From IMG/VR virus record IMGVR_UViG_3300046467_000278, positions 1 through 28,648 of that record: a DNA stretch of 28,648 bases. One strand, 5' to 3'. Shown one piece after another: positions 7,366 to 27,450 of the stretch. Below the pieces are notes generated by a model, which worked only from the letters and a program-made list of their open reading frames with translations, was not told the origin of the DNA and searched no databases. The translations under genes were made by a program, and so were the position numbers. Numbering within the stretch: the stretch's first letter is position 1; each line of letters starts with the position of its first letter. Source of the stretch: a virus.

Positions 7366-7823
7366 AGCTCAAAGACCTCTCTCGCTTTACAAGCTAAAGT
7401 ATAATAAAGGGTATTTCCCATACCTCTGCTAAATTCTTCTATTACTACTGTTACCGCTTCTTCTACATCAGCTGTAGATCCTGTGCCTGCTACTGCGGTT
7501 GTATCAGGTATGGTTAATCTACAAGAATCCACACCTGCAAGAACTGTAAAGAATCTATATAAATTATCAATATCTTCTCTAGTTCTATTATTGAATACTA
7601 GACCCCATTCTCTAGGAGTATTATTTATTCCGTCCACCATTCTCATTTCGTAACCATCCCCAAATTGAGTTTTTATAACTCTAAGTTTGGGAGTTTCTGC
7701 AGCTCCTTTGTCAAACATTACTGGGTCAGTAAAGCCATAAATGTCAGTACCGGGCGTTACTCCAGTAACTCTTGCTCCAGATGTATTTGTATTTATTGTA
7801 TTAGTTGTTAATCCTTGTGCCAT
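7362..7823 (-). CDS. M: Minor tail protein M homologue
   Basis: This 153-residue protein matches the phage minor tail protein M family. The segment KTQFGDGYEMRMVDGIN, followed by REWGLVFNNRT and the LYRFFTVLAG helix (residues 50-100), is the family core. It joins the tape-measure end of the tail to the L/K/I/J tip complex. The start is ATG overlapping the tape-measure stop (TAATG), and its own stop overlaps the L start. An N-terminal extension of about 35 Thr/Asn/Gly-rich residues precedes the core. Confidence 0.9.
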   Translation of the reverse strand: MAQGLTTNTINTNTSGARVTGVTPGTDIYGFTDPVMFDKGAAETPKLRVIKTQFGDGYEMRMVDGINNTPREWGLVFNNRTREDIDNLYRFFTVLAGVDSCRLTIPDTTAVAGTGSTADVEEAVTVVIEEFSRGMGNTLYYTLACKAREVFEL

Positions 7824-10800
7824 TATACTCTACCTTTTGCTCCTTGTCTATTAAGTAGCCCGCCTGGTCTCATTTCTACCTGTAAATGTTGTTGAACAAG
7901 TCCACCGATTGATCTTCCAAGTGCTTGCATATCTCCGCCACCAGCTACTGAAGTATTTGATTGTCCACCCTGCATACTTATAGATACGTTTACTGTGTTT
8001 CCACTAGCACCCCGTATATCTACAGGAATACTTCTATCGTTTCCTAAAGGAACAACCGCTTCTCTACCGTGTAATGTAGCTTGATAACCTGAGTTTGGTC
8101 CGTTTGCGATTCCACCTGTTGCGTATCCTGGTCCATTTAATTCTCCTCCGTATCTAGCAGTTCCTTTGAGGAATTCCATTACTGCTCCACCACCTGGCAT
8201 GAACGCCATCATAAATTTCAATGCTGCGGCTTTGAGATACATTGCAGCCATATCGGAAAGTACTGATTTAGTTAAATCTTTCATAGAGTCTTTAAATGAC
8301 TTAGTTCCGTCAACCATTGCTTGGAACATACTTACAAAACCATTTTCTATAGTACTTTGTATACCATCCATTAGTTCTTGTTCTACTTTTAAATTTGTTG
8401 GAGTCGTTGCTACTAACCTAGCTCTCTCTTTAAGTTTTTCGTTTCCTTCTGCTTCTAAATCTATATTATTGCGTAGATTTTCTAAACGAATTAGTTGATA
8501 TGCGTTTTCTATAGGATTCATAGTATAGACTCTTTTTTCCCACATCTTCATCTTATCTGTTTCAAGTTCTAAGGCTTTCATAGCTGCTTCGCCTGATAAG
8601 ACATTTGTTTCTTCAGAAATTTTTGAACCATCTACTGCTATTTTACTTAATAGAGCCTCATATACTGCTAAATTAGTATTAAAATCTTTCTGCTTCTGTG
8701 TAAGAGCTGTTCCCCCCTCACTCTCATCTTTAAAGTATTGTAAATCTTTTGTGAAGTCTACTTTATCAAAGCCTGGTATCTCTGCTGAGTGATCAACTAG
8801 TCCTGTTCCGCCATCTGCTTTACTTGTTCCTGTTGTCCAAGTCTTAGTTTGTGCCGCAGTATCACTTCCAAATTGAGTTTTCAATTCAGTAAGCATATCG
8901 GTCTTTTTAGTTTTTTGTTGCGTCTGCATATTACGCAAATCTGTTAAAGCAGCATTTGCAGCTTGCCATTCCCCTAATACAGTATTGAAGCCGTCTGCTG
9001 ACCGTTGAGCCGTATTTTCTGCTTGTATTTGTTTTTGTCGTGTTATCTCTCGCTCTACATTTAATGTAGATTCTTTAATTTGTAATAGTCTATTAGCGGA
9101 AGCTACCATTATTATTGAAAGCTCACTATTTAAGTTTGCAATTTCAAATTCTTGTCTAGTAAGGTCTATTGATTTCCTAGCTGCTACTAAATCTAAATTA
9201 GTGTCGTCTCGAAGTTTCTCACTTAATCTGGATATCTCTTCGAGTTGTTCAGTGGTTAACTCTTTTGCTTTTCCATCTTGGACATTCTGTTCCTGCATCC
9301 CTTGCATCGCTTGAGTAATATTGTCTTCAATTCCTGCATTAACATTCAGTAAGTTTGCTTTTGCAGCTAAATGCTTCTCGAATGCTTGACCCGCTTTTAA
9401 TTGGGCTGTGCGGGTTTTTAAATCATTTTGATCCATTCGTTGTTGAATACCTACACCTTTTAATTTACTTACTACCGTCTCTTGACTTATGTCCAGTACT
9501 TCTTGTTGGTTCTTCATCCCCTCTTTAACATAGTTATTTATGGCAATTTGTAAGAACCCTAAATGTTCCTGCTTCCGTCTATGGGAATCTAATTCCATTG
9601 TCCATTCTCTTTGTTGTTTTGTTACTTTAATTAGTGCTTTTGCAAGACCCCCACCACCATCACTAATTTCTTCTGCTGTTATACCAAGTATCTGTGCATA
9701 TTCTTTTAACTTTTCGCCTGCTGCTATTGATGATGAATCTTGAGCCAAAGCGTCTCCTGGACCTGTTGGGCCAGTAAACATTTTTTCAAATAAAGTCAAG
9801 TCGCTAAAATTTTCTAAGTAGTCGCTTCCCATAGTTCTTCGTGATTCTACATATAATTCCTCTAATTCTCGTGAAGTTGGTATCTGCTTTAGTTGCTCCT
9901 TACGATCCTCTGTATTTCCTACTAGTCCTGTATTAAACTGTCTCTTTTCCTTAGTTATTGCATTCGTTTCGCCTGCCATTCCTCCAATCATACGATTATA
10001 TAGATCTATTTGACTAATTATTGATTTTTGTAAATCTTGATAAGGAAGTTTACCGTATTTACCTACTGCTTTAGTTAATTGTGAATTTAATGATTTAGTA
10101 TTTTCTTCTAGCATTTTACTTGCTTGAGAGGCATCAATCATAGCATTACTCATTTGCTGATATTTCTTCATGGTGTCATCAGTAATTTCATTACCAGCTG
10201 CAAATTCTTTAGTAAGTCCAGCCATTTGAGGGGACATAAACTGTAAGCTTTTCCCTAGCTTATCAAATTCTTTTTGTGTTTTTTTGGAGATACCTTTCTT
10301 AACTTCTTCATTATACTCCCTCATTTTTTTGCCAATATCGACACTTTGGAAAGCATTACCAACTTGTTCTAATGATTCTGCTCCTCCGAGGATTGATTCT
10401 CCTCGAATTGTTGCCATTCTGTCTAGTTCTTCATTTAGTGTCCCTAAACTTTCCTGTAATTTCTTTGTTGCTTCTCTTGCTTTTTTAGCATCTTCATCTA
10501 GATCTCTTAGAAATGAGATACCTGACCAAAGCATTTGAGCTGCCATTAAAGCTATCCCAAGATACCCTACCCATTTCATAAGACCTTGAACACCAGCAGC
10601 GATTCCGCCTTTTGCTTGAGATTTTCTCATTTCTCTCTTTGCTACTTTTTCTTCGTGTTTAGCTCTTTCTGCGGCTTTCCTATACTCCGCTTCACTAGTA
10701 ATATCAACTTGACGGTTTTCACCCGCCGCGTGTATCTGCTCCATTTCTAGTACATGCTTTCTAAATGCCGCCTTTTCCTCTATATTAAACTTCATATAGA

Positions 10801-11986
10801 TGCCTTGCTTCTTCCTCATTGAAACTTTATAGGCAGCTATTTGTTGCTTACTTAGCATACTCTTCTTTTTACCGCTTGCATCTGTACCTTTTAGTTCTAC
10901 ACCGAGAGCTTGTAGTCCTTTGCCTGCACTTTTCTGTGTACCTACTGGATCTGCTTTTACCATTGCCGCAGATGTTGCAGCTATATTCATTTCTTCATTG
11001 GCTGTCGCAGCCGCAATCTGCGCCTCGCCAAAGTTTTTCTTAGCGGCTGCACCCATAGCGTTTAAGTCTGGTAACATACTGCCTACTATTGGTCTTGCAA
11101 ACAAAACGAGTGCTGCAGTTAAAGCCATTACATTATCTTTTAAGAAACCAATTAAAGGTAATAAAGTTTCAGATAAACCTACTTGAAAGCCTCTTACTAA
11201 GTCGTCGAACTCTTTAGTTAACTGACCTAATGCAAAGGAGTCTGGATCCATTACTTCTGCAATTCTTCCATATTTTTCAGTAGCTTGCGTCATAACATTA
11301 TTCATAACCGCTTGTGTTCTTTCATAAGCGTTTAATTGATCTTTAGTTTTACCTATTGTTTGAGCATACTCTCTTGTAGCATTTTCTAGTCTTAAAATGA
11401 TACCTAATTCATCCAAGAGTTCTGGTTCCGCTTTTGTTACACCACGAATTAACCTATTGAATGAATCGGTTAAATCTCTACCAAGAGCAAGTGATGCATT
11501 CTTTGCTGCAGTACCTAATTGTGTTACTTGATCTCCACTTAAACCAGATGCAATACCAATAGCCAGGGACGATGCGGCCTCTTTAAAGCCTAACATGCCT
11601 GCTGTTGCATCTTGTAATTGTACGGTTAAAGTTTGATATGCGATACCAGTAACAGCTCCAAACTGTTTCTGGCCTTCGATCATGTTGCGGACTTCGAATG
11701 AGTCCTGTAGAAATCTAAATGCTGCGGACACAGCGAATAGTTGTGCGGCTAAAGTTGCATAGATAGGTACAATACCCCCACTGATAGTTTGGGCTTGTTT
11801 GGAGAAATTCTTTGAAGCGTTGGAAGACTGACGGGATAGTCCTTTTAATCTACGGTCAGAGTCTGATACACTCCTCGCCATAGACTTCATGGAAGCCCCA
11901 GCCTGCTTTGCTTTATCTCCTAGTACCTTTAGAGTTTTCCCGTCGGAAAACTTAAATAGTACTTCTACTACATCTTTTTTTGCCAT
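7823..11986 (-). CDS. H: Tail tape measure protein
   Basis: At 1387 residues this is the longest complete gene in the window. It acts as the ruler for tail length and is likely ejected ahead of the DNA. Long helical, coiled-coil-like stretches are broken by hydrophobic segments near residues 70-93, 276-305 and 465-490, which may insert in the host membrane. The C-terminal part has the usual tape-measure ending: a Gly/Ala-rich segment with YATGGIANGPNSG and HGREAVVPLG. Using the known ruler relation of about 0.15 nm per residue, tail length would be near 200 nm. It starts 6 bp after the GT stop with no clear Shine-Dalgarno, which fits translational coupling to the frameshift product. Confidence 0.95.
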   Translation of the reverse strand: MAKKDVVEVLFKFSDGKTLKVLGDKAKQAGASMKSMARSVSDSDRRLKGLSRQSSNASKNFSKQAQTISGGIVPIYATLAAQLFAVSAAFRFLQDSFEVRNMIEGQKQFGAVTGIAYQTLTVQLQDATAGMLGFKEAASSLAIGIASGLSGDQVTQLGTAAKNASLALGRDLTDSFNRLIRGVTKAEPELLDELGIILRLENATREYAQTIGKTKDQLNAYERTQAVMNNVMTQATEKYGRIAEVMDPDSFALGQLTKEFDDLVRGFQVGLSETLLPLIGFLKDNVMALTAALVLFARPIVGSMLPDLNAMGAAAKKNFGEAQIAAATANEEMNIAATSAAMVKADPVGTQKSAGKGLQALGVELKGTDASGKKKSMLSKQQIAAYKVSMRKKQGIYMKFNIEEKAAFRKHVLEMEQIHAAGENRQVDITSEAEYRKAAERAKHEEKVAKREMRKSQAKGGIAAGVQGLMKWVGYLGIALMAAQMLWSGISFLRDLDEDAKKAREATKKLQESLGTLNEELDRMATIRGESILGGAESLEQVGNAFQSVDIGKKMREYNEEVKKGISKKTQKEFDKLGKSLQFMSPQMAGLTKEFAAGNEITDDTMKKYQQMSNAMIDASQASKMLEENTKSLNSQLTKAVGKYGKLPYQDLQKSIISQIDLYNRMIGGMAGETNAITKEKRQFNTGLVGNTEDRKEQLKQIPTSRELEELYVESRRTMGSDYLENFSDLTLFEKMFTGPTGPGDALAQDSSSIAAGEKLKEYAQILGITAEEISDGGGGLAKALIKVTKQQREWTMELDSHRRKQEHLGFLQIAINNYVKEGMKNQQEVLDISQETVVSKLKGVGIQQRMDQNDLKTRTAQLKAGQAFEKHLAAKANLLNVNAGIEDNITQAMQGMQEQNVQDGKAKELTTEQLEEISRLSEKLRDDTNLDLVAARKSIDLTRQEFEIANLNSELSIIMVASANRLLQIKESTLNVEREITRQKQIQAENTAQRSADGFNTVLGEWQAANAALTDLRNMQTQQKTKKTDMLTELKTQFGSDTAAQTKTWTTGTSKADGGTGLVDHSAEIPGFDKVDFTKDLQYFKDESEGGTALTQKQKDFNTNLAVYEALLSKIAVDGSKISEETNVLSGEAAMKALELETDKMKMWEKRVYTMNPIENAYQLIRLENLRNNIDLEAEGNEKLKERARLVATTPTNLKVEQELMDGIQSTIENGFVSMFQAMVDGTKSFKDSMKDLTKSVLSDMAAMYLKAAALKFMMAFMPGGGAVMEFLKGTARYGGELNGPGYATGGIANGPNSGYQATLHGREAVVPLGNDRSIPVDIRGASGNTVNVSISMQGGQSNTSVAGGGDMQALGRSIGGLVQQHLQVEMRPGGLLNRQGAKGRV

Positions 11987-11992
11987 AATAAA

Positions 11993-12804
11993 TTAGTTTT
12001 TGGCTCGTCTAGCCCTTGTCTCTTCTTGTCTTTTGAGACCGTCATTTGTACTCACAATATGTTCCGCCTCTATGTGTTTAAGAAAAAAGACACTAGTCTT
12101 CCAATCACTAATTTTTAGTATTCTAAGCAACGACTCCAATGCGCTCCAGTCTTTGCCCATATAAGTACCACTAGCTCCATCCCATCTATCTGGAAGAAAG
12201 GTATGTAGCAAAAAAGATTCTTGAACCTCTAATGGATAATCCGATATTTCTGTCGGCATCTCATCAAGATCAGGATCTTCCCCCATTTGTTCTTTCAAAT
12301 TTAGGTACTGGTCTACTGACATACTCTCTTGGAGTTGTCGTTTAATTAAAGCAAGTAGCTTATTTACTTGCTCTGTGTAAAATTTTCTAACTCTCCAACC
12401 TGCTCGGTTACCCAAGTATCAAAGTCTGATGAATTTTTCATCAATACTTCTACATTTTCTTGAGTAAAAGGTAAGGTTTGGTCTTGATTATCCACATCTG
12501 AAATTAGTACTAAGCTTTTGAGATATTTCATCTTCAATCCTGTCCAGCCTTTTATTACTGATCTGGTATATTCTGTTAAAAACTTTTCATCATCCAATTG
12601 TTCTTCGTATCCACGAGTTTTTCTGTTAAAAACTTGAGAGACACATCGGCCCCTTAGTTTAACTAGTTCTTCTCTGGCTAAGTAACAAAGTTTTACTTTA
12701 AAACCTGCACTGCCTGGATAATCAAACTCCACTGTTTTACTGGGAGTCATTAAAGTTTTGAGTGAAACTACTGGTGTAGCCTCTGTCTTTACTTTTTCGT
12801 TCAT
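11993..12804 (-). CDS. Tail assembly chaperone GT fusion made by -1 frameshift
   Basis: A -1 slip at codon 142 (AAT TTT, 12384-12379) joins the G frame to the downstream T frame and gives a fusion of 270 residues (142 + 128). Lambda gpGT has about 279. The T part begins at TAC 12379. It contains acidic, helical sequence around EDPDLDEMPTEISDY and a conserved-looking hydrophobic block HTFLPDRWDG, and ends in an Arg/Lys-rich tail. In the lambda system T binds the tape measure while G recruits tail-tube protein. The T frame has no good independent start. The only upstream initiator is TTG at 12415, without a Shine-Dalgarno, so frameshifting is the sensible route. Confidence 0.83.
12348..12385 (-). 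promoter_or_regulatory. Programmed -1 ribosomal frameshift signal (slippery site plus hairpin)
   Basis: Reading the minus strand in the G frame, 12385-12379 is A_AAT_TTT, a perfect X_XXY_YYZ heptamer. After slipping, the frame reads AAA TTT TAC and enters the T ORF. Four bases further on, a stem can form between 12374-12365 and 12357-12348: ten pairs including one G-U, with the seven-base loop AATAAGC. The G stop codon (12366-12364) falls in the stem and loop. The spacing, with four to six bases between heptamer and stem, is in the range of known stimulatory structures. The shift direction matches the lambda G-GT system. Confidence 0.85.
12364..12804 (-). CDS. Tail assembly chaperone G-like (zero-frame product)
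   Basis: This 146-residue protein lies between the tail-tube and tape-measure genes, where lambda G sits. It would help the tape measure fold and recruit tail-tube subunits. It resembles other G-type chaperones in size and in the early block VEFDYPGSAGFKVKLCYLAREEL. The last codons contain the slippery heptamer described separately, so a fraction of ribosomes continue into the T frame. An AGGA sequence upstream of ATG at 12804 is a modest ribosome-binding site. The call rests mainly on position, size and the frameshift; sequence resemblance alone would be weak. Confidence 0.82.
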   Translation of the reverse strand: MNEKVKTEATPVVSLKTLMTPSKTVEFDYPGSAGFKVKLCYLAREELVKLRGRCVSQVFNRKTRGYEEQLDDEKFLTEYTRSVIKGWTGLKMKYLKSLVLISDVDNQDQTLPFTQENVEVLMKNSSDFDTWVTEQVGELENFTQSK

Positions 12805-16855: not shown

Positions 16856-18895
16856 TTAACTAGCTTTGTACTTGTAAGCCCACTTGGAAGTTGCACCCGC
16901 GATTAAATCGTCGAATCCAATTCTTTGTGAAGCAACAATAACTCTGCGCTGGTTAGCCACTTCGTAATCTGACTCTAAAGTCACACCACGTAATCTTGGC
17001 ATCACATAGTTTCTTGCGTATACTGCAATAGCTCCGAATCCATTAGCTGCTTGTGCAGGGAACTCGTCACAAAGAAGAATCCTTGATCCGAATACCTGTC
17101 CAATCTCGCCTCTGAGTTTGGTAGCCATGTCGCCTACTAAATTAGCATCTTGGAATTCAGCATCTTCCAATAGTTGGAAATATACTGCTTGAGATACGAT
17201 GTAAACTACGTCGTTAGGATTAACGCCATATTTACCCATATTCTTCCTCATGCTTAATAGATTAGCGGCAGTAACGGTGTCTGTTGCGACTGCGGTAGTT
17301 GATTGTGTTTGATCACTATCAGCTGCTGCCATCGTTACTAGTCCATCAAACGTTCCTGATGTATAAACACCAGTTGAATGATTTCCTAATAGGATTGCAT
17401 TTTCAATCCCTTTCGCGTGAGATCTAACGATTGACTCTCTAATCAACGGAAGAATAGGCATAATTGCATCCTCTTCTGTTTCATTTCCTAAGTATGATTG
17501 TGAAATCAGTTTCTTAGTACTAAGAGTTTTCTCTGTTAAATCAACACCACCGAATGGTGAACCATAAGTATCACCTGTTTGTGCTAAGTTACCATGTGGA
17601 GATGATCCAGTTGCGGCTTGGTTGCTAGTGAACTCTGCGTAACCACTATCTGGTAAGATAGGGATTATCATGTTCGCTGCTGTTAGAGTAATTTCTCTAA
17701 AAAGAGGTGCCAAAACTAATTCGTTTTGGATATCTCTTTCAACGTTGGTTGATACAACTTGCTCAAAGTCTGCACTTGAAACGCCAACACCCGAATGGGC
17801 ATTAACTTTTTCATGTATAGATTTGGCATATTCAGTATCGAAACCTCTGCCGGTCGCTAGACCAAGTACTTTTGCATCGACTACGTCGTTTGCAAATGCT
17901 TTTTGCCAGTCGCCTTCACCTCTGCGGTCTGAGAATATTCGTTTAGATTCGCGCATATTCATTATGTCTTCAGATCTCTCTTTCAACTCAGCTTGAAGTT
18001 CGCGGACTACTTGTCCTAAATCTTCTTGCTTTTCATTTACGCGTTTCTCGATATCTCTAACCAGAGTTTCAGCTCCAGTAGTTACTGCCCTTACGACAGT
18101 TTTGTGTTCCTCTTGCTTCGCTTCCACTGCTGCTTTCTGTTCGGCTTCTAGTTTAGCGGCATTTTCTGCTGCGTCCACTTTAGCTTTTTCGTCTGCGGCT
18201 TTAAGTTCGGCTTGCTTCATTGCATAAGATGCAACTGCTTTTTCGGCAGCGTCTTTTGCGTATGACTCAAGGTCGAACTCAGGGGAAGTTACAGGAGTGT
18301 TTTTTTCTTCTGACATCTTCGTCTCCGTTTTGTCGGCTCTCGCCTTGCTTGACTGTTCAATCTTTGCGTTAGCGTCGATTGAAGAAGTCTTTATAAAGTC
18401 TTGTTTAAACGTGTTGTACTCTTCTATATTGTCAAATGATTTGGCAATTGAGAAGACTGCGTCTTGGTTACAAGGAACCGAAACAACAGACACTTCGAAC
18501 AGTTCTGCGTCCTTTATCTTATATCCGTCGGTTTCATTGATATAATCTGCATCCTTGACTTTGAAACCTACGGAAAAAGCCCCAAGAACGCCATCTTTAA
18601 TAAGATCTTTAATATCGCCAGCTGACTTAGATATACGTGCTGTAATCTCTAAACCATCATTGCTGACTTCTATTTCTTTTGCCCGACCTATTGGTCGGTC
18701 ATAATTGTGATTGAATAAAAGGATTGGATTATTTTTATAATTATTTAACCCACCTTTAGTCCAAGCACTTGCTTCAATAATATCTCCAGCTCTGTCTAAT
18801 GAGTTGGTACTTGCTGATCCTTTGATATCAAGTCCCCCATCATCATCTTCGCCTAAGCTTTTGAAACTATTTGTCCAATGAAATATCTTATCCAT
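16856..18895 (-). CDS. Fused prohead protease (S78/HK97 type) and major capsid protein
   Basis: One 679-residue ORF encodes both head-maturation protease and capsid subunit. Residues 1-155 are an S78-type prohead protease: FNHNYDRPIG with catalytic H63, GAFSVGF with S108, and ELFEVSVVSVPCN near 131-143. Residues 200-315 form a long Ala/Glu/Lys-rich coiled coil, equivalent to the HK97 delta scaffold. The rest is an HK97-fold capsid protein, with the N-arm near 330-390 and the core ending in RVIVASQRIGFDDLIAGATSKW. Start ATG 18895 follows the small gene upstream by 2 bp. An internal ATG at residue 194 has its own ribosome-binding site (separate entry). Protease-capsid fusions are known in some phages; the mature protein is released by cleavage. 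Confidence 0.93.
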   Translation of the reverse strand: MDKIFHWTNSFKSLGEDDDGGLDIKGSASTNSLDRAGDIIEASAWTKGGLNNYKNNPILLFNHNYDRPIGRAKEIEVSNDGLEITARISKSAGDIKDLIKDGVLGAFSVGFKVKDADYINETDGYKIKDAELFEVSVVSVPCNQDAVFSIAKSFDNIEEYNTFKQDFIKTSSIDANAKIEQSSKARADKTETKMSEEKNTPVTSPEFDLESYAKDAAEKAVASYAMKQAELKAADEKAKVDAAENAAKLEAEQKAAVEAKQEEHKTVVRAVTTGAETLVRDIEKRVNEKQEDLGQVVRELQAELKERSEDIMNMRESKRIFSDRRGEGDWQKAFANDVVDAKVLGLATGRGFDTEYAKSIHEKVNAHSGVGVSSADFEQVVSTNVERDIQNELVLAPLFREITLTAANMIIPILPDSGYAEFTSNQAATGSSPHGNLAQTGDTYGSPFGGVDLTEKTLSTKKLISQSYLGNETEEDAIMPILPLIRESIVRSHAKGIENAILLGNHSTGVYTSGTFDGLVTMAAADSDQTQSTTAVATDTVTAANLLSMRKNMGKYGVNPNDVVYIVSQAVYFQLLEDAEFQDANLVGDMATKLRGEIGQVFGSRILLCDEFPAQAANGFGAIAVYARNYVMPRLRGVTLESDYEVANQRRVIVASQRIGFDDLIAGATSKWAYKYKAS
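18314..18326 (-). promoter_or_regulatory. Internal ribosome-binding site and start inside the protease-capsid ORF
   Basis: In the minus strand, GGAG (18326-18323) lies six bases before an in-frame ATG (18316-18314), codon 194 of the fused ORF. It sits exactly at the junction between the protease and the coiled-coil scaffold (product starts MSEEKNTPVTS). Initiation here would give a 486-residue scaffold-capsid protein without protease. That would set the high capsid-to-protease ratio that heads need. The placement at a domain border argues against chance, but use has not been shown. Confidence 0.6.
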
Positions 18896-18897
18896 TG

Positions 18898-19161
18898 TTA
18901 TTTCCCCTTGGTAGCAGCTTTCTTCGGAGCAGCTTTAACAGCTGGCTCTGGAGAAACAGGCGCTGGGGCAGGAACGTCTATAGGGAACCGTGCTTTTGCA
19001 GCCGCCATAACCCTATTCCAACTTCCAAACTTCCTGCGTAGTAAATAATCTCTCACAGGTACGTCGTTTCCAATTGCCTTATAATCTGCTAGTGTTATTG
19101 TGTCAACACCTTTGCTGGCTACAAATTCTGATAAAGCCTTTAGCATCATATGTTTTGTCAT
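18898..19161 (-). CDS. Small protein with a homing-endonuclease-associated-type repeat
   Basis: This 87-residue protein sits between portal and protease genes. Residues 1-60 resemble the short helical DNA-binding repeat found next to HNH homing nucleases: a helix, then DVPVRDYLLRRKFGSWNRVMAAAK. The Phe-Gly-Ser-Trp turn is characteristic. Residues 60-87 are a Pro/Ala/Lys-rich tail. There is no nuclease motif. It may be a head-associated DNA-binding protein or a decayed relic of a homing gene; its tight packing (4 bp overlap with portal, 2 bp from the capsid ORF) favours a working gene. Function is unknown. Confidence 0.6.
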   Translation of the reverse strand: MTKHMMLKALSEFVASKGVDTITLADYKAIGNDVPVRDYLLRRKFGSWNRVMAAAKARFPIDVPAPAPVSPEPAVKAAPKKAATKGK

Positions 19162-20375
19162 AATTCTTCCTCATCTGGTGAGTCCTCTGTCGGTCTCCCA
19201 CCTTCCTCTGGATTTGCGGCTGAACCTGCAATATTTGCAGGAACTCTCGGTGTATCAAATCCGTCAATTTTTTCAAACCTGAGTGCCTCCCTCGCTTCAT
19301 TCGGTGTTAATATTCCCGTGTTCACAAGTGTGGAGTAATACCCCGCCTGATCTCTCATCTCTGGTTGAAGAGCAGGAACTCCTGAAATCTCCTCATCCAA
19401 TTTAAAACCGAAGAACCTCTCGAAAGCATATCCTATTTTTCTAACTATAGGTAGTATGGTTTCTAAGTAATATAATCGGTGATTAGGACGTATGTTAGCG
19501 TTGTTACCACCATCTAATAAGATGGGTGGAATACCCATCGCTTCTAGGATTATCTTTTCATTTGAAGCTATTGCTTGCTGAAAATCTAAATCCTTGAAAT
19601 TGACTTCCGTCAAGTTCTCAACTTCTAATCCGCCATCAAGGAATAACGGTCTACGACCTCCTGATTGCGGGTTGTACCTAGCTACCCAAGCTGCTAACAT
19701 TCTTTCTTTGATTTTCTCAGAAAGTGTATTAGGTGACTTAAGTACTAAACCGGGCACTGCTCCGTTCTTAAAGAAATTATCTTGGAATCGTCTCATTGAG
19801 CCTAGTAACTGCATAGTTCTCCATGCTGGTTTTAATCTAGGAACTCCTCTATAAATAGAGTTGAAACTATTTTCTTTGATATGTATTATCTCTTTAGGAG
19901 TATAATCTACGCTGTGATCATAAGTATATTTCTTAACATACGTCTTATCATCGGTCTCTATCGTTACGTGTTCTGCTGGTAAATGATATAAATGTCTTCC
20001 ATCGAAATAAATAAAGATATTACCATCTAGTAGTAAATCGATAATTAAATTTCGTTTAAACGAATTTATATCTTGAAAGGGATTCGCTTCTTTATTAAGT
20101 AGTAAATCGACTCTAGATCGTCTTATTGACTTAATAATGTTGTTTATCCCTACAACAGGTTCGCCTACATCAAAAGGTATGTCCGCAGCGTCGTCCACTA
20201 TCATGTTAACCGCGCGGTTTACAACCTCTAATTGTTCGTAAGCATTTCTATAGTTAGTAACAGTTTCTCTAGAATCTAGGCTTAAGCCTTCATCACGGGC
20301 GATCAGGAACTGAGAGGGATTTTCTTTTTCCTCTGTTTCTTCTGTTCTGCCTAAAAATCTGTCATACCATGCCAT
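19158..20375 (-). CDS. Portal protein (HK97 type)
   Basis: This 405-residue protein forms the twelve-fold DNA channel at one capsid vertex. Its length is typical for HK97-like portals. Characteristic parts are the N-terminal helix (YRNAYEQLEVVNRAVNMIVDDAADIPF, residues 42-68), the LLLDGNIFIYFDG strand region (about 110-125), and the stem and clip segment YRGVPRLKPAWRTMQLLGSM (about 175-200). MGIPPILLDGG follows near 285-295. The C-terminus is Pro/Glu/Asp-rich. ATG 20375 lies within the last codons of the HNH gene (14 bp overlap). The gene order HNH-portal-protease-capsid supports the call. Confidence 0.93.
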   Translation of the reverse strand: MAWYDRFLGRTEETEEKENPSQFLIARDEGLSLDSRETVTNYRNAYEQLEVVNRAVNMIVDDAADIPFDVGEPVVGINNIIKSIRRSRVDLLLNKEANPFQDINSFKRNLIIDLLLDGNIFIYFDGRHLYHLPAEHVTIETDDKTYVKKYTYDHSVDYTPKEIIHIKENSFNSIYRGVPRLKPAWRTMQLLGSMRRFQDNFFKNGAVPGLVLKSPNTLSEKIKERMLAAWVARYNPQSGGRRPLFLDGGLEVENLTEVNFKDLDFQQAIASNEKIILEAMGIPPILLDGGNNANIRPNHRLYYLETILPIVRKIGYAFERFFGFKLDEEISGVPALQPEMRDQAGYYSTLVNTGILTPNEAREALRFEKIDGFDTPRVPANIAGSAANPEEGGRPTEDSPDEEEL

Positions 20376-20733
20376 GTTTATCTCTCTGTATTTTCACCCA
20401 TCTGTGTTGTTTACTTGCTGTTATTAACTTCGGTCTTTTGCCATAGATAGAGTGTAATCTTAAATGATGTTCATGACATAAAGTAACAGCTTCGTCATAA
20501 AGTTCTTTTTTGTGTTCAGCAATAAATTGCTGTCGAATATTTAAAATATCCTGTTCTTCTGTTACTTGGAGTTTCTTCTTTTTCAACCAAGATTCTAACA
20601 ACTCTGTTAATCCGTTGAAATGATGAAAATCTAAGTTTTCTATTGCTCCGCAGATATAACACTCCGTCGCTTTATTATACTGCGACTTAGCCTTATCCCG
20701 AACATACTTAACAAGATCTCTCTTTAATGTCAT
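20362..20733 (-). CDS. HNH-type endonuclease, small
   Basis: This 123-residue protein has a zinc-finger pair C25-x2-C28, the histidine pair FHHFNG at 37-38, and CHEHHLRLH at 86-94, the layout of beta-beta-alpha-metal HNH nucleases. Between them lies a basic coiled helix. HNH proteins beside terminase and portal genes occur in many HK97-type phages, where they assist terminase in cutting or packaging DNA; a homing role is the alternative. It is the first gene after the strong promoter at 20754-20794. Only about 14 bases of leader are expected, with a weak ribosome-binding site. Confidence 0.8.
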   Translation of the reverse strand: MTLKRDLVKYVRDKAKSQYNKATECYICGAIENLDFHHFNGLTELLESWLKKKKLQVTEEQDILNIRQQFIAEHKKELYDEAVTLCHEHHLRLHSIYGKRPKLITASKQHRWVKIQRDKHGMV

Positions 20734-20753: not shown

Positions 20754-20794
20754 ATTATACTAAAATTTGGGACTAATGTCAAGAACTATTTTTG
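20754..20794 (-). promoter_or_regulatory. Consensus sigma70 promoter for the head-tail operon
   Basis: On the minus strand TTGACA (20782-20777), a 17-bp spacer and TATAAT (20759-20754) form a perfect sigma70 promoter pointing at the HNH gene. The upstream sequence CAAAAATAGTTCTTGACA (20794-20777) and the spacer end TTTAG are the same as in the promoter at 24254-24294. The predicted start of RNA is near 20747. It probably drives the HNH, portal, capsid and tail genes. Confidence 0.88.
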
Positions 20795-20806: not shown

Positions 20807-22105
20807 CTAGAAAGTAGTAGCACTTGTTTCAAACGAGTACAACGCATACCGTAATGCATCTGCCATATGAGAAGCATAGTTATGTTTTGGTTTTTCCCTC
20901 AATAAATTCGGATTCGGATCCCACTGGTATTGGTCTAGGGAGATCAGAGTTTCTTTACATTTTTGATCAACTATTAGCTGGTCGTTATCTACAATTCCTG
21001 CAACGCGACCTATTCCATCAAGGACGGACTTCTTTGCGTTTATAGTACTAATGTCGTAATTTTGTGCTAAATCAAATCGTGTTTGTTGTGCCGCCGAATC
21101 AATATAAATGTAATCAACATTCCATTTATTTATTATGTCTCTAATCTTTGACGCGTGTTCTTCCGTAGTTCTCTCAGCATCCAAATATTCATCAAGTAGA
21201 TAATAGACTTCTTTGTCCCAATCATATCCTATTACACAAAAAGCTGTAGGATCCTTAAACCCAACATCCATTCCTGCGAATACATCCATTTTACTTGTTT
21301 GTAGTTCTGAAAGGTCTTGTTGGCACTTCTCTAAGTTAAATGCCCATACCTGTCCTTCATAGGTATTAAAATCTGCCATGTATTCCTGATTGAACTCTGC
21401 TTCTGACATTGTCTTTCTAGCTTCATCAATATCTTGTTCAGAGATACGTGGATTTTCATGGTAAGTTGCTCTAACGGAAGCCCATTCCGCATACTCATCA
21501 CTGTAACCTCTATAATAAAACTCTGAAAACCAATTGTTTCTTCCTCGTGGGGTAGAAATAAATAAGGCTTTAGAGTTGAATTTATCTAAGGTAGGACGAA
21601 GTGCTATATTGAAAGCATCTCTGCCGTCTACTAGTGCTGCTTCGTCAAAAATAATTAAATCGTAAGATCGACCTACCGTAGAGTCAACTTGATTTATTGA
21701 CCCCATTCGTATAGTTGAATGATTGGATAGTTCGATTACTTTATCCTTAGCATTATCTTTGATAACTTCTAAGTCAAAGTGTTTGATAAGATTCCTCTGT
21801 AAGTCAAAGGAAATTTGTGAAAGAGAGTAGTTAGGCGACATAAGTAACACATTTGAACCTGGTACTAAACATACTAGTTGTCCAATTATGTTTGCAATAT
21901 AAGTTTTACCTTGCCTACGCGCAACTGCCGCTGAAACAAACCTATACTTAGGATTGTTCATAGCATTGATAATTGCTGTTTGTGTGGAATTGGGTTCGAT
22001 ACCCAGTAATTCCATGTAACCATCAATTGGAAGTTTAATGAATCGGTTTTCCCCGAAATCCATCAAGCCTTTGGGCTCTATGTCTGTTCTACTTATCTCT
22101 AGCAT
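20807..22105 (-). CDS. terL: Terminase large subunit
   Basis: This 432-residue packaging motor and nuclease has all main motifs. The ATPase has a Walker A variant VARRQGKT (61-68), Walker B LIIFDE (150-155) and coupling motif STPRG (184-188). The RNase H-like nuclease has acidic residues D280 (GMDVGFKDPT), D336 (YIYIDSAAQ) and D416 (ASHMADALRYAL). It cuts concatemeric DNA and pumps it through the portal. No small terminase is recognisable next to it; the 78-residue gene just upstream is a candidate by position only. The start ATG follows that gene's stop by 2 bp. A strong promoter for the next genes lies just after its stop. Confidence 0.96.
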   Translation of the reverse strand: MLEISRTDIEPKGLMDFGENRFIKLPIDGYMELLGIEPNSTQTAIINAMNNPKYRFVSAAVARRQGKTYIANIIGQLVCLVPGSNVLLMSPNYSLSQISFDLQRNLIKHFDLEVIKDNAKDKVIELSNHSTIRMGSINQVDSTVGRSYDLIIFDEAALVDGRDAFNIALRPTLDKFNSKALFISTPRGRNNWFSEFYYRGYSDEYAEWASVRATYHENPRISEQDIDEARKTMSEAEFNQEYMADFNTYEGQVWAFNLEKCQQDLSELQTSKMDVFAGMDVGFKDPTAFCVIGYDWDKEVYYLLDEYLDAERTTEEHASKIRDIINKWNVDYIYIDSAAQQTRFDLAQNYDISTINAKKSVLDGIGRVAGIVDNDQLIVDQKCKETLISLDQYQWDPNPNLLREKPKHNYASHMADALRYALYSFETSATTF

Positions 22106-24008: not shown

Positions 24009-24206
24009 CTAAGGATGCATGGACAATATAGTCCATATGACTCCAGCCCCGCCAACGATTATCGTTCCCGCGACACCAATCATAATTGTTTCTATTCTTG
24101 TAACTTGTGAGTCTAAAGCATCAAACCGATTGAATGCAGTTTTCCATCGCTCGGCACATACAGCTTCATGTCTCGCAAGGTCTGCCGCGACATCGTCTAC
24201 GTTCAC
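24009..24206 (-). CDS. Membrane-anchored small protein, XhlA/holin-like
   Basis: This 65-residue protein has an N-terminal helical, coiled-coil-like part (residues 1-40, with RWKTAFNRFDALDSQVTRIE) and a single C-terminal membrane helix IMIGVAGTIIVGGAGVIWTIL (41-61). That layout matches haemolysin XhlA-type and some holin-associated proteins. It is the first gene after the 24254-24294 promoter. I chose GTG 24206, preceded by GGGGGAGAAAG; no ATG gives this frame. Together with the 59-residue membrane protein it could form a holin pair. Confidence 0.6.
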   Translation of the reverse strand: MNVDDVAADLARHEAVCAERWKTAFNRFDALDSQVTRIETIMIGVAGTIIVGGAGVIWTILSMHP

Positions 24207-24253: not shown

Positions 24254-24294
24254 ATTATACTAAATTTTGTGGTTGTTGTCAAGAACTATTTTTG
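24254..24294 (-). promoter_or_regulatory. Consensus sigma70 promoter for the small-gene and terminase unit
   Basis: Minus strand: TTGACA (24282-24277), 17-bp spacer, TATAAT (24259-24254), pointing at the gene starting at 24206. The 18-bp block CAAAAATAGTTCTTGACA (24294-24277) is identical to that at 20777-20794 and here includes the last codons and stop of the cyclase gene. It separates the accessory operon from the packaging genes. Confidence 0.88.
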
Positions 24295-26055
24295 TATGGT
24301 GTATATTTTAACTGGTTCCGACTTGCCTTTTACAACAACTTCGTCCAAGAATTCATATTCATACCCATCTACTAGACTATGCTCGGAAATAATTAAATCC
24401 GTCTCATAAGTCTTACAGCTACTTTCTAAGCGAGCAGCGAGGTTAACAGCATCGCCAAGAACACTGTAATCGAACCTAGTATTACTACCCATGTTGCCGA
24501 CAACACAAAGTCCTGTGTTAATTCCGCATCCAGTATGGATTTCAGGGATTTTTTCAGCTTTAAATATTTCATTTAATTCTCCTAATGCTTCTCTCATTTC
24601 AAGAGCGCACTCAGTAGCTTTTCTTTCTTGGTCTTCCACGTCTAAGGGAGCATTCCAGAAAGCCATAATGCAGTCTCCCATGTACTTATCCACACATCCC
24701 TCGTGCTTCTGTATTATCTCAGTCTGATTAGTTAAAAAACGATTAACTATCTCCACTAATTTTTGTGGATCCGACTGGTATTTTTCCGAAATTGGGGTAA
24801 ATCCCCGAATATCCGAAAATAGAAAAGTCATACGTTTTGTAACCCCACCCAGTCTCAGTAATGTTGGGTCTTTTTGTAATTTTTCAACCAAGGCAGGACT
24901 AACATAGGTCCCAAATTGTTGTTTGATCTGTAATCTCAACAAGTATTGAGTAATAAAACTACGGAATTGTACAATACTCCAGAATAAAAACAGGATCACG
25001 AGCGATCCCGAGACGTCAAGTAAGTAGGAAGACTCTATAAGCTTCCATGAAGTGAAGCCAGTCCCTCCTAATAGTACTAAAATGACAGGTACGCTAAGAT
25101 ATATGTTACTAGCTACTATCATAATTGCTATCATTCCTGTAACTAGTATGGTAAGTTCCGCCCATAGGCTCCATGAGGGTTGGGAAAGTGCGTTTCCGTT
25201 TACTATTGTGTTAAGAACTGTTGCTTGGATATCATGTGGGTACTTTACCCCGCCTGGAGTTGCTACAAGAGGAGCCACTCCCTCTGCTGTTACACCAAAT
25301 ATTACAAAGGGTGCAGGTATCGGCTCTTTTAAATACTCTAAAGCGGTCTGTCTATAGAACTTGGTATTCCAATTCGCCCAAACAGTACCGTTTTCACTAG
25401 TTATTATCTTATTGTATTGCGGAAGCCTTATCCATTCGACTCCTGTCTCTTCAGTCTTTATCTGATAGCTGGGGTCTCCAGTACCAAGTCGAAGCATTTC
25501 GAGTGCAAAGCTAGGATATATCCTATTTTCTACACTTATTGCGAGAGGAATCCTTCTTACGACCCCGTCTAGCTCTGGGCTTGTTGATATTAGCCCCACG
25601 CCTTGGCTTTCTAACGCTGACCGTAAAATTCCGGGGTATTGATATAGCCATTCTGCTGGATTTCCTCCTCCTAACTGCGCCGTTCCTACATGTGGTCCGC
25701 CTTCAAAGGCTTGCGTGCTTCCTATAAAGGAAAGTACAGTAGGAATGTGATTTAAAGTTGTCTGAAATATCTCATCTTTGCCATGAAGGTCTTTATCTGG
25801 AAAAGCTACAGTGATTCCTGGTACACCTTGAGTAATAGTCAGTAAATTAGCATACACATCTCTTGATAAAGGGTATCCTCCAAACTTTTCTACTGTATCT
25901 TCATCAATATCTACTAATAAGATCATTTCATCTTGAACTTCGTCCCGAGACATTATCAAAGCATCAAGTGACTTGAGCTCTAGTATCTGAAAAGGGTACG
26001 GATTCCAAATAAAAAGCGCCGCAAGAGCGGCAGCTAGTAGTAAATTGACTTTCAT
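24286..26055 (-). CDS. CHASE2-domain membrane nucleotide (adenylate) cyclase, class III
   Basis: This 589-residue protein is a transmembrane sensor that should make cAMP on an external signal. An N-terminal membrane helix (about 3-17) is followed by a periplasmic CHASE2 sensor (about 22-290; MILLVDIDEDTVEKFGGYPL, later FVIFGVTAEGVAPLVATPGG). Three membrane helices (about 297-365) and a class III cyclase domain (about 400-580) come next. The cyclase keeps both metal-binding Asp residues (FSDIRGFT and KYMGDCIMAFW), the Lys before MGD for adenine binding, and the GDAVNLAARLE motif with catalytic Asn and Arg, so it looks active. I chose ATG 26055, which overlaps the previous stop (TAATG), over the TTG at 26082. 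The gene is unusual for a phage. FecR genes often neighbour such cyclases in bacteria, as here. Guanylate cyclase activity is the alternative. Confidence 0.9.
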   Translation of the reverse strand: MKVNLLLAAALAALFIWNPYPFQILELKSLDALIMSRDEVQDEMILLVDIDEDTVEKFGGYPLSRDVYANLLTITQGVPGITVAFPDKDLHGKDEIFQTTLNHIPTVLSFIGSTQAFEGGPHVGTAQLGGGNPAEWLYQYPGILRSALESQGVGLISTSPELDGVVRRIPLAISVENRIYPSFALEMLRLGTGDPSYQIKTEETGVEWIRLPQYNKIITSENGTVWANWNTKFYRQTALEYLKEPIPAPFVIFGVTAEGVAPLVATPGGVKYPHDIQATVLNTIVNGNALSQPSWSLWAELTILVTGMIAIMIVASNIYLSVPVILVLLGGTGFTSWKLIESSYLLDVSGSLVILFLFWSIVQFRSFITQYLLRLQIKQQFGTYVSPALVEKLQKDPTLLRLGGVTKRMTFLFSDIRGFTPISEKYQSDPQKLVEIVNRFLTNQTEIIQKHEGCVDKYMGDCIMAFWNAPLDVEDQERKATECALEMREALGELNEIFKAEKIPEIHTGCGINTGLCVVGNMGSNTRFDYSVLGDAVNLAARLESSCKTYETDLIISEHSLVDGYEYEFLDEVVVKGKSEPVKIYTIQK

Positions 26056-26900
26056 TAGTCTTGTGTTACTGCAATGGTACAACCACCTACAGTTATGCAG
26101 GTCTGAGTTAGAGTATAGTTCTGTGTTGTATTACTATGCTGTGAAATATCTAAATCAGTTCCATAAGTTCCATTGAGTGTGATAGTTGCGTTGTGTTCAC
26201 CATTTCCGTCTTGAAGATAATCTACTACATTGTCATCATTGTTGATAGTTAGATAAAATTCTTTTCCACCATCAGCTTTTTGTTTACCAAAGACAGAGTT
26301 ATCATCTCCGTATAAGTAGATTCTTGCATTATGCCCACTACAGATATTAGCAGAACAATTTCGTTGTTGTCCAACTATTGTATTATTATTTCCGTGTATA
26401 TCTAAAGTAACTGAATGACCCCCGCCTTCTGTGTTATCTACAGCCCAACTAGTATCTGTTCGACTTGAAATTTCAAATCCTTGCGCCCACCATAGTTTAT
26501 TGTCTGTTCCATAACTTACGTGGAATTGAATATCATTTTTATTACAAGCAGTTCCTTTAGTACAATTTTGCCAGAGTTTTATATCTTGGTCGTCAAAGTC
26601 TATATCACCGCCCCAAGCAACTCCTGAACCCCAACTAGGATAATCATTAGCATATCCAATTTCATTATTATTCCCTTTCTGATAAATCTCAATATCAACG
26701 TTGTCTCCGTCTCCTAATGAAAAGAATATATCATTGTTATATCCTTCTTGAGTAATATCTAAAGTTAGGTTATCTCCTTGAGCTACCTGATCAATAACTA
26801 TTTCATTATCTCCCCAAACCTTTTGTGCTCCGAAAATTAGTACTAAAATGACGGCAAGACAGCCGAAGTATACAATAGTAATTTTGTTATTTTCTTTCAT
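26055..26900 (-). CDS. Curlin-like repeat protein, exported
   Basis: This 281-residue protein has an N-terminal hydrophobic anchor or signal (ITIVYFGCLAVILVLIFGAQ, residues 7-26), then many strand-like repeats resembling CsgA/curlin repeats: DITQEGYNNDI, EIYQKGNNNEI, DIHGNNNTIVGQ and LYGDDNSVFGKQ. These Gln-x-Gly-x-Asn-Asn and Gly-x-x-Asn patterns give a beta-solenoid or amyloid-type fold. Three short Cys-bracketed loops (NCTKGTACN, NCSANICSG, TCITVGGC) are unlike E. coli CsgA and suggest disulfides. The C-terminus resembles the partial protein at 28528-28648. ATG overlaps the upstream stop (TAATG). A cell-surface adhesin, fibre or matrix subunit is likely; no CsgG- or CsgF-like export gene is in the window. 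Confidence 0.72.
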   Translation of the reverse strand: MKENNKITIVYFGCLAVILVLIFGAQKVWGDNEIVIDQVAQGDNLTLDITQEGYNNDIFFSLGDGDNVDIEIYQKGNNNEIGYANDYPSWGSGVAWGGDIDFDDQDIKLWQNCTKGTACNKNDIQFHVSYGTDNKLWWAQGFEISSRTDTSWAVDNTEGGGHSVTLDIHGNNNTIVGQQRNCSANICSGHNARIYLYGDDNSVFGKQKADGGKEFYLTINNDDNVVDYLQDGNGEHNATITLNGTYGTDLDISQHSNTTQNYTLTQTCITVGGCTIAVTQD

Positions 26901-27274
26901 TAAAATCTCTTCCTCCAGTAAATGCCATTATGTGCAACTACTAATCCTTGGGTTGCATTCAACCACCACAAGGCTTTTTCTCTCTTAATTAAATCTTTGT
27001 CCAACATATAGTAGATTCCAATATTTCCTATTACTTTAAGCATCACTACCTCGTGTTTTTGTGGGTGAGAACCTAAAATTGGGTTCGCCTCATGGATCAT
27101 GCAGTTAGATAGTTTTTGACAATCTATCATTTTAAATGCCTGATAAGTATCTAGTGCAGATAAGGCTATATAGCTATGATATAGCTTTCTTTCCGTCTCA
27201 GTCCATTGTTTATAGGCAGCGTCGCATGAGCCTGCTGCACTTAAAAATAATATTGCTAGTAGGAGCTTAGTCAT
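26900..27274 (-). CDS. Putative lipoprotein, unknown family
   Basis: This 124-residue protein begins MTKLLLAILFLSAAGSCDAA, a signal peptide with a possible lipobox (A-G-S-C17). The mature part has a pattern seen in small phage and bacterial proteins: helix LYHSYIALSALDTYQAFKMI, then CxxxxxC (C-QKLSN-C), EANPILGSHP, a hydrophobic helix (VIGNIGIYYML), and a basic end. I chose ATG 27274, which overlaps the stop of the 59-residue gene (ATGA), over TTG 27292. It would sit at the outer membrane or inner membrane face of the periplasm, near the FecR and cyclase products. Confidence 0.65.
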   Translation of the reverse strand: MTKLLLAILFLSAAGSCDAAYKQWTETERKLYHSYIALSALDTYQAFKMIDCQKLSNCMIHEANPILGSHPQKHEVVMLKVIGNIGIYYMLDKDLIKREKALWWLNATQGLVVAHNGIYWRKRF

Positions 27275-27450
27275 GTTGTTTCCATATAGCAATTCTTGGT
27301 TACGTGCTGATTATTCATCTGACGTGCCCAGTCTAGCTCTTGGATAAGTCTATTGTACCATTGCTTATCGTGTTCAGTGTTAGGTCTAGATAACTCCTCT
27401 TTGAGTTGTTCGATCCTTACCTCAATATAATTTGGTTTTACTCTTTTCAT
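27271..27450 (-). CDS. Hypothetical 59-residue protein
   Basis: This short cytoplasmic, highly charged protein (MKRVKPNYIEVRIEQLKEEL and a second helix QWYNRLIQELDWARQM) looks like a two-helix coiled coil. AGGAG lies eight bases before ATG 27450, 11 bp after the FecR stop. Its stop overlaps the start of the lipoprotein gene (ATGA). No family is recognised. Small helical proteins with this LKEEL and WYNRLIQEL style are common in phage genomes, which supports a phage origin for the cassette. Confidence 0.6.
   Translation of the reverse strand: MKRVKPNYIEVRIEQLKEELSRPNTEHDKQWYNRLIQELDWARQMNNQHVTKNCYMETT

Follow-up and report, generated by a model that had tools for sequence, protein, structure and literature searches.

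A CHASE2-adenylate cyclase closing a curli-FecR island of marine siphophages is a candidate signalling subunit of the island

Why would a phage carry a transmembrane receptor with an adenylate cyclase domain? The question is raised by a gene in a viral stretch of 28,648 bases, hereafter the window, which is an entire IMG/VR record, linear and probably a fragment; the longest records of its relatives reach 75.5 kb. A sequence-only reading had taken the gene for a stand-alone sensor and overlooked the FecR-domain and curlin partners encoded in the same window (Table 1). With these partners, the gene is more likely to serve a system of surface fibres as its signalling component than to sense the environment on its own.

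Table 1. Features of the window
Feature	Position	Strand	Basis or remark
Central tail fibre J-like protein, clipped by contig end	2..4246	-	phrog_31 3.7e-149; siphovirus tail
Tail tape measure protein, 1387 aa	7823..11986	-	phrog_3779 9.8e-39
Head protease and major head protein, fused	16856..18895	-	phrog_80 2e-38, phrog_617 4.9e-35; T5-like relatives
Portal protein	19158..20375	-	Pfam Phage_portal 7.1e-57
HNH-like small protein between portal and terminase	20362-20733		phrog_3497
Second perfect promoter of the sigma-70 type, between terminase and HNH ORFs	20754..20782	-	consensus search
Terminase large subunit, T5-like	20807..22105	-	46-50% identity over 97-98% to T5-like phages
Small ORF, 65 aa, one hydrophobic segment (by eye)	24009..24206	-	kept 3' of the cyclase in T5-like relatives
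Sigma-70 type promoter, perfect TTGACA-N17-TATAAT	24282-24254	-	0 mismatches; precedes small ORFs and packaging genes
CHASE2-adenylate cyclase, 589 aa	24286..26055	-	last gene of the curli island; Pfam, phrog_35576, catalytic residues, AF2 model
Curlin 2 (second curlin-repeat protein), 281 aa	26055..26900	-	Pfam Curlin_rpt 3e-4, barely over cut-off; equivalent position in other phage islands
Small 130-aa protein, hydrophobic N-terminus, weakly DUF5658-like	26900..27292	-	Pfam DUF5658 E=0.083, under cut-off
FecR-domain protein, secreted, 373 aa	27462..28583	-	Pfam FecR 3.2e-10; phrog_37870 2.2e-70; AF2 model; C-terminal motif
Curlin 1, C-terminal end, clipped by contig end	28528..28648	-	frame ends ...ATVTINQKDTTD, stop 28530-28528

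The cyclase frame is uninterrupted from ATG to TAG; a TTG at 26082 could serve as an alternative start and would extend the protein to 598 aa. The ATG and the stop codon of the upstream curlin gene overlap in the sequence TAATG, which suggests that the two genes are translationally coupled. The Pfam domains CHASE2 (E=1.1e-30) and Guanylate_cyc (E=2.6e-20) both pass the cut-off, and the best PHROG match, phrog_35576 (E=1.2e-149), covers approximately the whole length; that library thus already contains a phage family of exactly this architecture. The AF2 model (pLDDT 87.8) contains a CHASE2 fold, three long helices and a cyclase fold, the latter resembling the structures 3r5g, 1wc1 and 2w01. 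By Pfam and model together, the protein runs from a CHASE2 domain through transmembrane helices into a class III cyclase domain. The catalytic set read from the sequence is complete: D415 and D461, which we take to be the metal residues, K457 and D529, presumably selecting ATP, and N538 and R542, presumably acting on the transition state. The earlier description of an intact, full-length CHASE2 class III cyclase is thus confirmed. Its natural interpretation is a transmembrane receptor that would read the periplasm and make cAMP from ATP.

Among the matches listed, the same six residues are present in 195 of 197 full-length phage cyclases (T5-like 69/69, T4-like 61/63, untyped 65/65), the invariance of K457 and D461 being partly built in since both lie within the retrieval probe KYMGDC. 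One of the two exceptions runs off the end of its contig (L194); the other, from the isolate Melnitz, is without D529 and N538. The equivalents of these residues in Melnitz (L083:13932-15983) are Ser, unlike in nearly all other phage copies, and this cyclase may be inactive or altered. The median dN/dS over 497 T5-like cyclase pairs, which are not independent, is 0.17 for the whole gene, 0.23 in the CHASE2 part and 0.074 in the cyclase part, indicating strong purifying selection.

The genes surrounding the cyclase are those of a phage. The terminase, the portal protein and the fused protease-capsid gene are of the T5-like head type. The tail cluster contains the tape measure, major tail, minor tail and J proteins with a lambda-type tip, and no sheath or baseplate family occurs among the best matches; judged by these genes, the tail is non-contractile. 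By its gene content the window comes from a lineage of marine siphophages whose head is T5-like, and the gene is, as had been claimed, phage-borne and conserved in a phage lineage. T5-like siphophages have terminally repeated genomes of about 110-120 kb. No tRNA and no Rfam match were found within the window. The cyclase had also been placed directly beside the packaging genes in the same orientation. The strand is indeed shared with the terminase, portal and capsid genes, but 2.2 kb containing small ORFs separate the cyclase from the terminase. For the 65-aa ORF, 76 family members were gathered from the window, from L001, which duplicates part of it, and from the first 80 viral loci.

The cyclase belongs to an island with the gene order CsgF, CsgG, curlin, FecR, curlin, cyclase (curli are exported by type VIII secretion). 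In the window this assignment follows from FecR upstream of the cyclase and the curlin-repeat proteins; CsgF, CsgG and most of curlin 1 are lost to the contig end. The remnant of curlin 1 covers the last 39 codons, and complete curlin 1 genes of relatives, e.g. in contig L020, end alike. The nearest long relative, L002, whose cyclase is 92% identical, contains both CsgF (1.5e-13) and CsgG (7.4e-47). The 130-aa protein is an optional member of the island, with homologues between FecR and the cyclase in some other T5-like contigs.

The distribution of the island was analysed in IMG/VR. A scan with the cyclase matched at least 599 stretches, of which 80 loci were kept; two further scans used HTVC008M and a bacterial island as queries. 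After removal of duplicates with identical cyclase ends, the matches listed contained 204 distinct viral contigs: 74 T5-like including the window, 65 T4-like and 65 untyped, with no podovirus islands recovered as a group of their own. CsgF, CsgG and FecR are all present in each of the 68 listed viral contigs that extend at least 6.5 kb beyond the cyclase on its upstream side (T5-like 20/20, T4-like 20/20, untyped 28/28; the remaining contigs are too short), and FecR is present in 103 of the 104 listed with at least 2.5 kb. Curlin genes occur in every island seen. Since these contigs were gathered by cyclase similarity, the frequency of islands lacking a cyclase cannot be read from them. A scan based on the terminase, and therefore blind to the cyclase, yielded 80 contigs; 21 extended 5.5 kb upstream, and 20 of these encoded the cyclase. 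L336, one of the terminase-matching contigs from the SAR86 order described below, has T5-like genes and contains 4.8 kb upstream of the small ORF and no cyclase, which counts against every relative carrying the island. The island is nearly fixed in the T5-like siphophage lineage. It is found in hundreds of marine phage contigs and annotated in the isolates HTVC008M and Melnitz, and a version with the cyclase was published in 2022 for Pelagibacter myo- and podoviruses (Wittmers et al., PMC9599517, excerpted text). The suggestion that such a sensor is not standard phage cargo is therefore not upheld.

Several further genes were observed near the island. In L002, IscU-like (NifU_N) and IscA-like iron-sulphur assembly genes adjoin it upstream (L002:2073-2811). 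PAPS-reductase-like genes lie upstream in three T5-like contigs (L018:3521-4585, L020:2426-3472, L060:2422-3489), and a tryptophan-halogenase-like gene immediately precedes CsgF in the viral contig L245 (L245:3658-4914), the cyclase of which is closely related to the bacterial copy discussed below. Adenylate cyclase in Acinetobacter phage records and CsgG in a Salmonella phage record of 1.5 kb look like bacterial DNA filed as phage (records CAKLQH020000011.1, CAKLQF020000009.1 and OR851715.1).

The cyclase is followed by one of two perfect TTGACA-N17-TATAAT promoters of the window, where shuffling predicts 0.01. The stop codon had been reported inside the promoter; in fact 3 nt separate the end of the codon from the -35 hexamer downstream. 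Among the matches listed, the 3-nt gap and the 17-nt spacer are identical in 67 of the 74 T5-like contigs, and 69/74 have a promoter with 11 or 12 of the 12 consensus bases within 150 nt past the cyclase, whereas the best match in shuffled copies of the 150-nt stretches has 10/12. T4-like contigs have a promoter of at least 11 bases behind the cyclase in just 7 of 62 cases listed. With this junction kept in T5-like but not in T4-like contigs, the cyclase is part of the resident architecture of the lineage. In T5-like phages the island stops just ahead of a strong promoter directed toward the packaging genes and so resembles a transcription unit of its own, perhaps an earlier one. A 75.6-kb relative contig stops 64 bp past the cyclase, close to the locked promoter (L059:11747-11810), which may be a genome end or an assembly break.

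The island FecR consists of a leader sequence, a FecR domain starting from residue 31, a disordered linker and a C-terminal beta domain. In the AF2 model (mean pLDDT 75.9) residues 31-205 are ordered, the linker is acidic, and the beta domain spans 301-370. The leader helix leads straight into the FecR domain, with no anti-sigma region ahead of it in sequence or model. A structure search with the model matched the FecR domain to the cell-surface signalling domain of PupR (6ovk, E=2.1e-4). The sole PDB sequence match of FecR is 5ix9 (E=0.0067), a cell-surface anchoring domain of an antifreeze adhesin, which superimposes on the FecR domain over 62 columns at 1.3 A rmsd. Domains of this kind hold adhesins in outer-membrane pores.

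The tail of FecR resembles a curlin strand. The motif hydrophobic-x-hydrophobic-x-Q, at most 4 residues from the end, occurs in 110 of 112 distinct FecR C-termini compared with 6.0 in shuffled ones; the pattern was written post hoc, when the sequences had already been inspected. Elsewhere in the island it is found in curlin 2 (87/90), curlin 1 (31/91), the cyclase (17/135), CsgG (1/102) and CsgF (1/80), and the controls are empty (terminase 0/33; bacterial FecR relatives outside islands 0/16). Profiles of the C-terminal domain of FecR and the C-terminus of curlin 2 align end to end with an hhalign probability of 45%, a moderate to weak value; the same tail profile gives 1.4% against curlin 1 and 0.3% against the cyclase. 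By these criteria the island FecR nearly always finishes in a curlin-like strand. The tail provides a concrete, testable link between fibre and sensor, which was left open in the published accounts consulted, where FecR was read as iron-related.

We consider it somewhat better than an even bet, with a probability of roughly 0.55, that the cyclase is the signalling subunit of the island, FecR relaying the status of the fibre or of its secretion to CHASE2 and the cytoplasmic domain changing, presumably raising, host cAMP. During infection CsgG and CsgF would form an outer-membrane pore, through which curlins would be exported. Secreted FecR would bridge the pore and the inner membrane, having its folded domain in the periplasm, a long linker and the curlin-like C-terminal strand. 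Its state (pore-plugged, fibre-joined or free) would be sensed in the periplasm by CHASE2, and in the cytoplasm the class III domain of the cyclase would respond by altering the cAMP level. The output would be mediated by the host, through CRP-type regulators or a cyclic-nucleotide-gated channel; we assign it to host machinery because no phage cNMP receptor (PF00027) was found in a set of 43 records, comprising the window and some of those from which the first 80 loci came, a weak negative as many of them are fragments.

The role of FecR as the carrier of pore or fibre information to CHASE2 is suggested by precedents in Burkholderia and Sinorhizobium meliloti, described below, and in bacterial loci. 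FecR-domain genes occur within the fetched flanks of 20 of 80 bacterial CHASE2-cyclase loci, in five of these directly upstream on the same strand. Presence of the island in a further phage lineage, its conserved architecture and the strong selection on the cyclase make an incidental association unlikely. The relay is weakened by the low profile homology between FecR and curlin, by the post-hoc nature of the motif and by the fact that FecR accompanies a minority of bacterial CHASE2 cyclases. It is also opposed by Melnitz, for which the excerpted text of PMC9004378 reports that cell clumping was not seen on infection, although the Melnitz cyclase is the one without two catalytic residues. Phages that make their hosts grow curli and encode a matched receptor cyclase would change how abundant bacteria of the ocean signal, both at the surface and through second messengers.

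A candidate host was found through the terminase. Proteins 73-76% identical to that of the window are encoded in two of 203 genomes of the order to which SAR86 cluster bacterium AG-422-E19 belongs; no near-match was observed in 289 genomes of the class of the bacterial contig L084 discussed below or in 274 genomes drawn evenly from the class of genome G044. The matches are phage contigs inside assemblies, of which one (G592) appears to be a MAG, as its contig C34 agrees in length and cyclase position with L115, a MetaBAT bin, and none displays the island; a SAR86-type host is therefore suggested tentatively. In the same order, proteins with cNMP-binding domains are present in 51 of 202 genomes, and one of the two phage-bearing genomes encodes a CRP-like protein (L417). 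In all six loci with a scanned protein, the SAR86-type CHASE2 cyclase has in its vicinity a protein that combines ion-channel and cNMP-binding domains; among solved structures this protein is most closely related to Mll3241, a cyclic-nucleotide-gated K+ channel (E=2.7e-39). SAR86 genomes, as at L094:9866-14957, group the cyclase with this K+ channel, a channel of the MscS type and a DUF481 protein. This is a first candidate host, and it comes with candidate targets of cAMP. A more elaborate variant of the relay is a checkpoint: FecR would plug the CsgG pore with its tail in the fibre outside and its folded domain inside, CHASE2 would read the plug, and cAMP would open the K+ channel of a SAR86-type host, coupling assembly to membrane potential and lysis time. 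This variant we regard as very improbable.

One alternative, which we think unlikely, is a general host-takeover enzyme, whose constitutive cAMP would shift host catabolism or transcription, the placement in the island being mere co-transfer. It agrees with the intact catalytic domain under the tightest constraint, with the cAMP receptors of the likely host group and with the zero count of phage receptors. However, not one of the 68 sufficiently long contigs listed has the cyclase without the island, and the CHASE2 part is constrained too. Moreover, a constitutive enzyme needs no periplasmic sensor: according to the excerpted text of PMC5498481, S. meliloti CyaD1 deprived of CHASE2 produces cAMP constitutively.

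Less probable still is a device for timing lysis, in which the CsgG pore would depolarise the envelope and the cyclase would help to time release. Pore timing was proposed for the CsgGF of Melnitz, the cyclase being unmentioned in the excerpted text (PMC9004378), and the K+ channel adjoining the SAR86 cyclase means that cAMP could shift the membrane potential. On the other hand, the curlin genes present in every island seen would be superfluous for a pure pore, and the T5-like island looks like a unit separate from, and possibly earlier than, the packaging genes.

The relationships of the cyclases were analysed in a tree of 87 representatives, built by a quick method without bootstrap. All phage cyclases group together with a single bacterial one and apart from the 36 other bacterial CHASE2 cyclases (SH-aLRT 100). 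The 15 T5-like rows form one supported group (100) together with the untyped short contig L039, which has the T5-like promoter at the identical place. The bacterial member, L084, is a contig of a Caulobacteraceae MAG with the island CsgF-CsgG-curlin-curlin-FecR-cyclase at 5944-12004, flanked by genes that look, by eye, like a glycosyltransferase, a peptidase and a TonB receptor; it is one of the five loci with FecR directly upstream. It nests with L244 and L245, both from phages, and, the deep branching of the tree being uncertain, transfer may have gone either way. L084 is either an exception to the statement in PMC9599517 (excerpted text) that the cyclase, the kinase and FecR are foreign to canonical bacterial curli operons, or a transfer from phage. 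A wide bacterial reservoir of the island was considered and rejected, as among 385 genomes of this class a full-length island FecR occurs once, in the genome of L084 itself, the next best matches covering the FecR domain only. Although CHASE2 cyclases are common in bacteria and L084 has the island amid non-phage genes, there is next to no chance that bacterial DNA was misassembled onto a phage contig or that the gene is a decaying passenger: the identical junction in contigs from many metagenomes excludes the chimeric join that had been feared near 24290, the clade is otherwise phage-only, two isolates carry the island, the catalytic set is kept and dN/dS is low.

The module has several relatives among known systems. 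FecR of the FecA-FecI-FecR iron-citrate system and PupR have in common with the island FecR a periplasmic signalling fold; however, FecR of the Fec system has a cytoplasmic N-terminal anti-sigma domain and a single membrane helix, whereas the island FecR has neither and is extracytoplasmic after its leader. Its name thus does not imply a role with iron citrate, and iron regulation by this protein is unsupported. In S. meliloti, CyaD1, CyaD2 and CyaK are CHASE2-domain AC/GCs that act downstream of a barrel in the outer membrane (PMC13001267), and the Clr-target proteins under discussion include SMc02177, which has a FecR domain (PMC5498481; both from excerpts). This system, likened here by description and not by sequence, is chromosomal and employs the regulator Clr and the barrel NsrA, whereas the phage has FecR and curli genes. 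The Burkholderia BiofilmReg operon is similar in that a secreted LysM-FecR protein shares an operon with a CHASE2 receptor, in this case a histidine kinase, and interruption of the response regulator abolished biofilm; its output is the kinase and response regulator rather than cAMP, and the excerpted text names no curli genes (PMC5192318).

The cyclase AGE60353 of the T4-like Pelagibacter phage HTVC008M has the same CHASE2 and class III domains and like neighbours; it is 37% identical over 96% and branches among the T4-like phage cyclases, not within the T5-like clade. The closest system is the type VIII secretion module of HTVC023P-type podoviruses and pelagimyophages (PMC9599517), whose gene set and order match those of the window lineage; as excerpted, that paper states that FecR and the cyclase are not in every phage island. 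In the podoviruses a histidine kinase precedes CsgF, whereas none was found in the four ORFs of at least 100 aa scanned upstream of CsgF in L002, the one contig so scanned. Phage CHASE2-cyclases and the curli-FecR-cyclase island of myo- and podoviruses were thus already known; the open-licence literature searched describes no island in a siphophage, no FecR tail and no SAR86 host. Compared with the published module, the window lineage differs in its siphophage carrier with a T5-like head, in the additional 130-aa gene between FecR and curlin 2 and in the promoter fixed 3 nt past the cyclase stop, and the present analysis adds to these the selection figures, the FecR tail and the leads to SAR86 and its channel.
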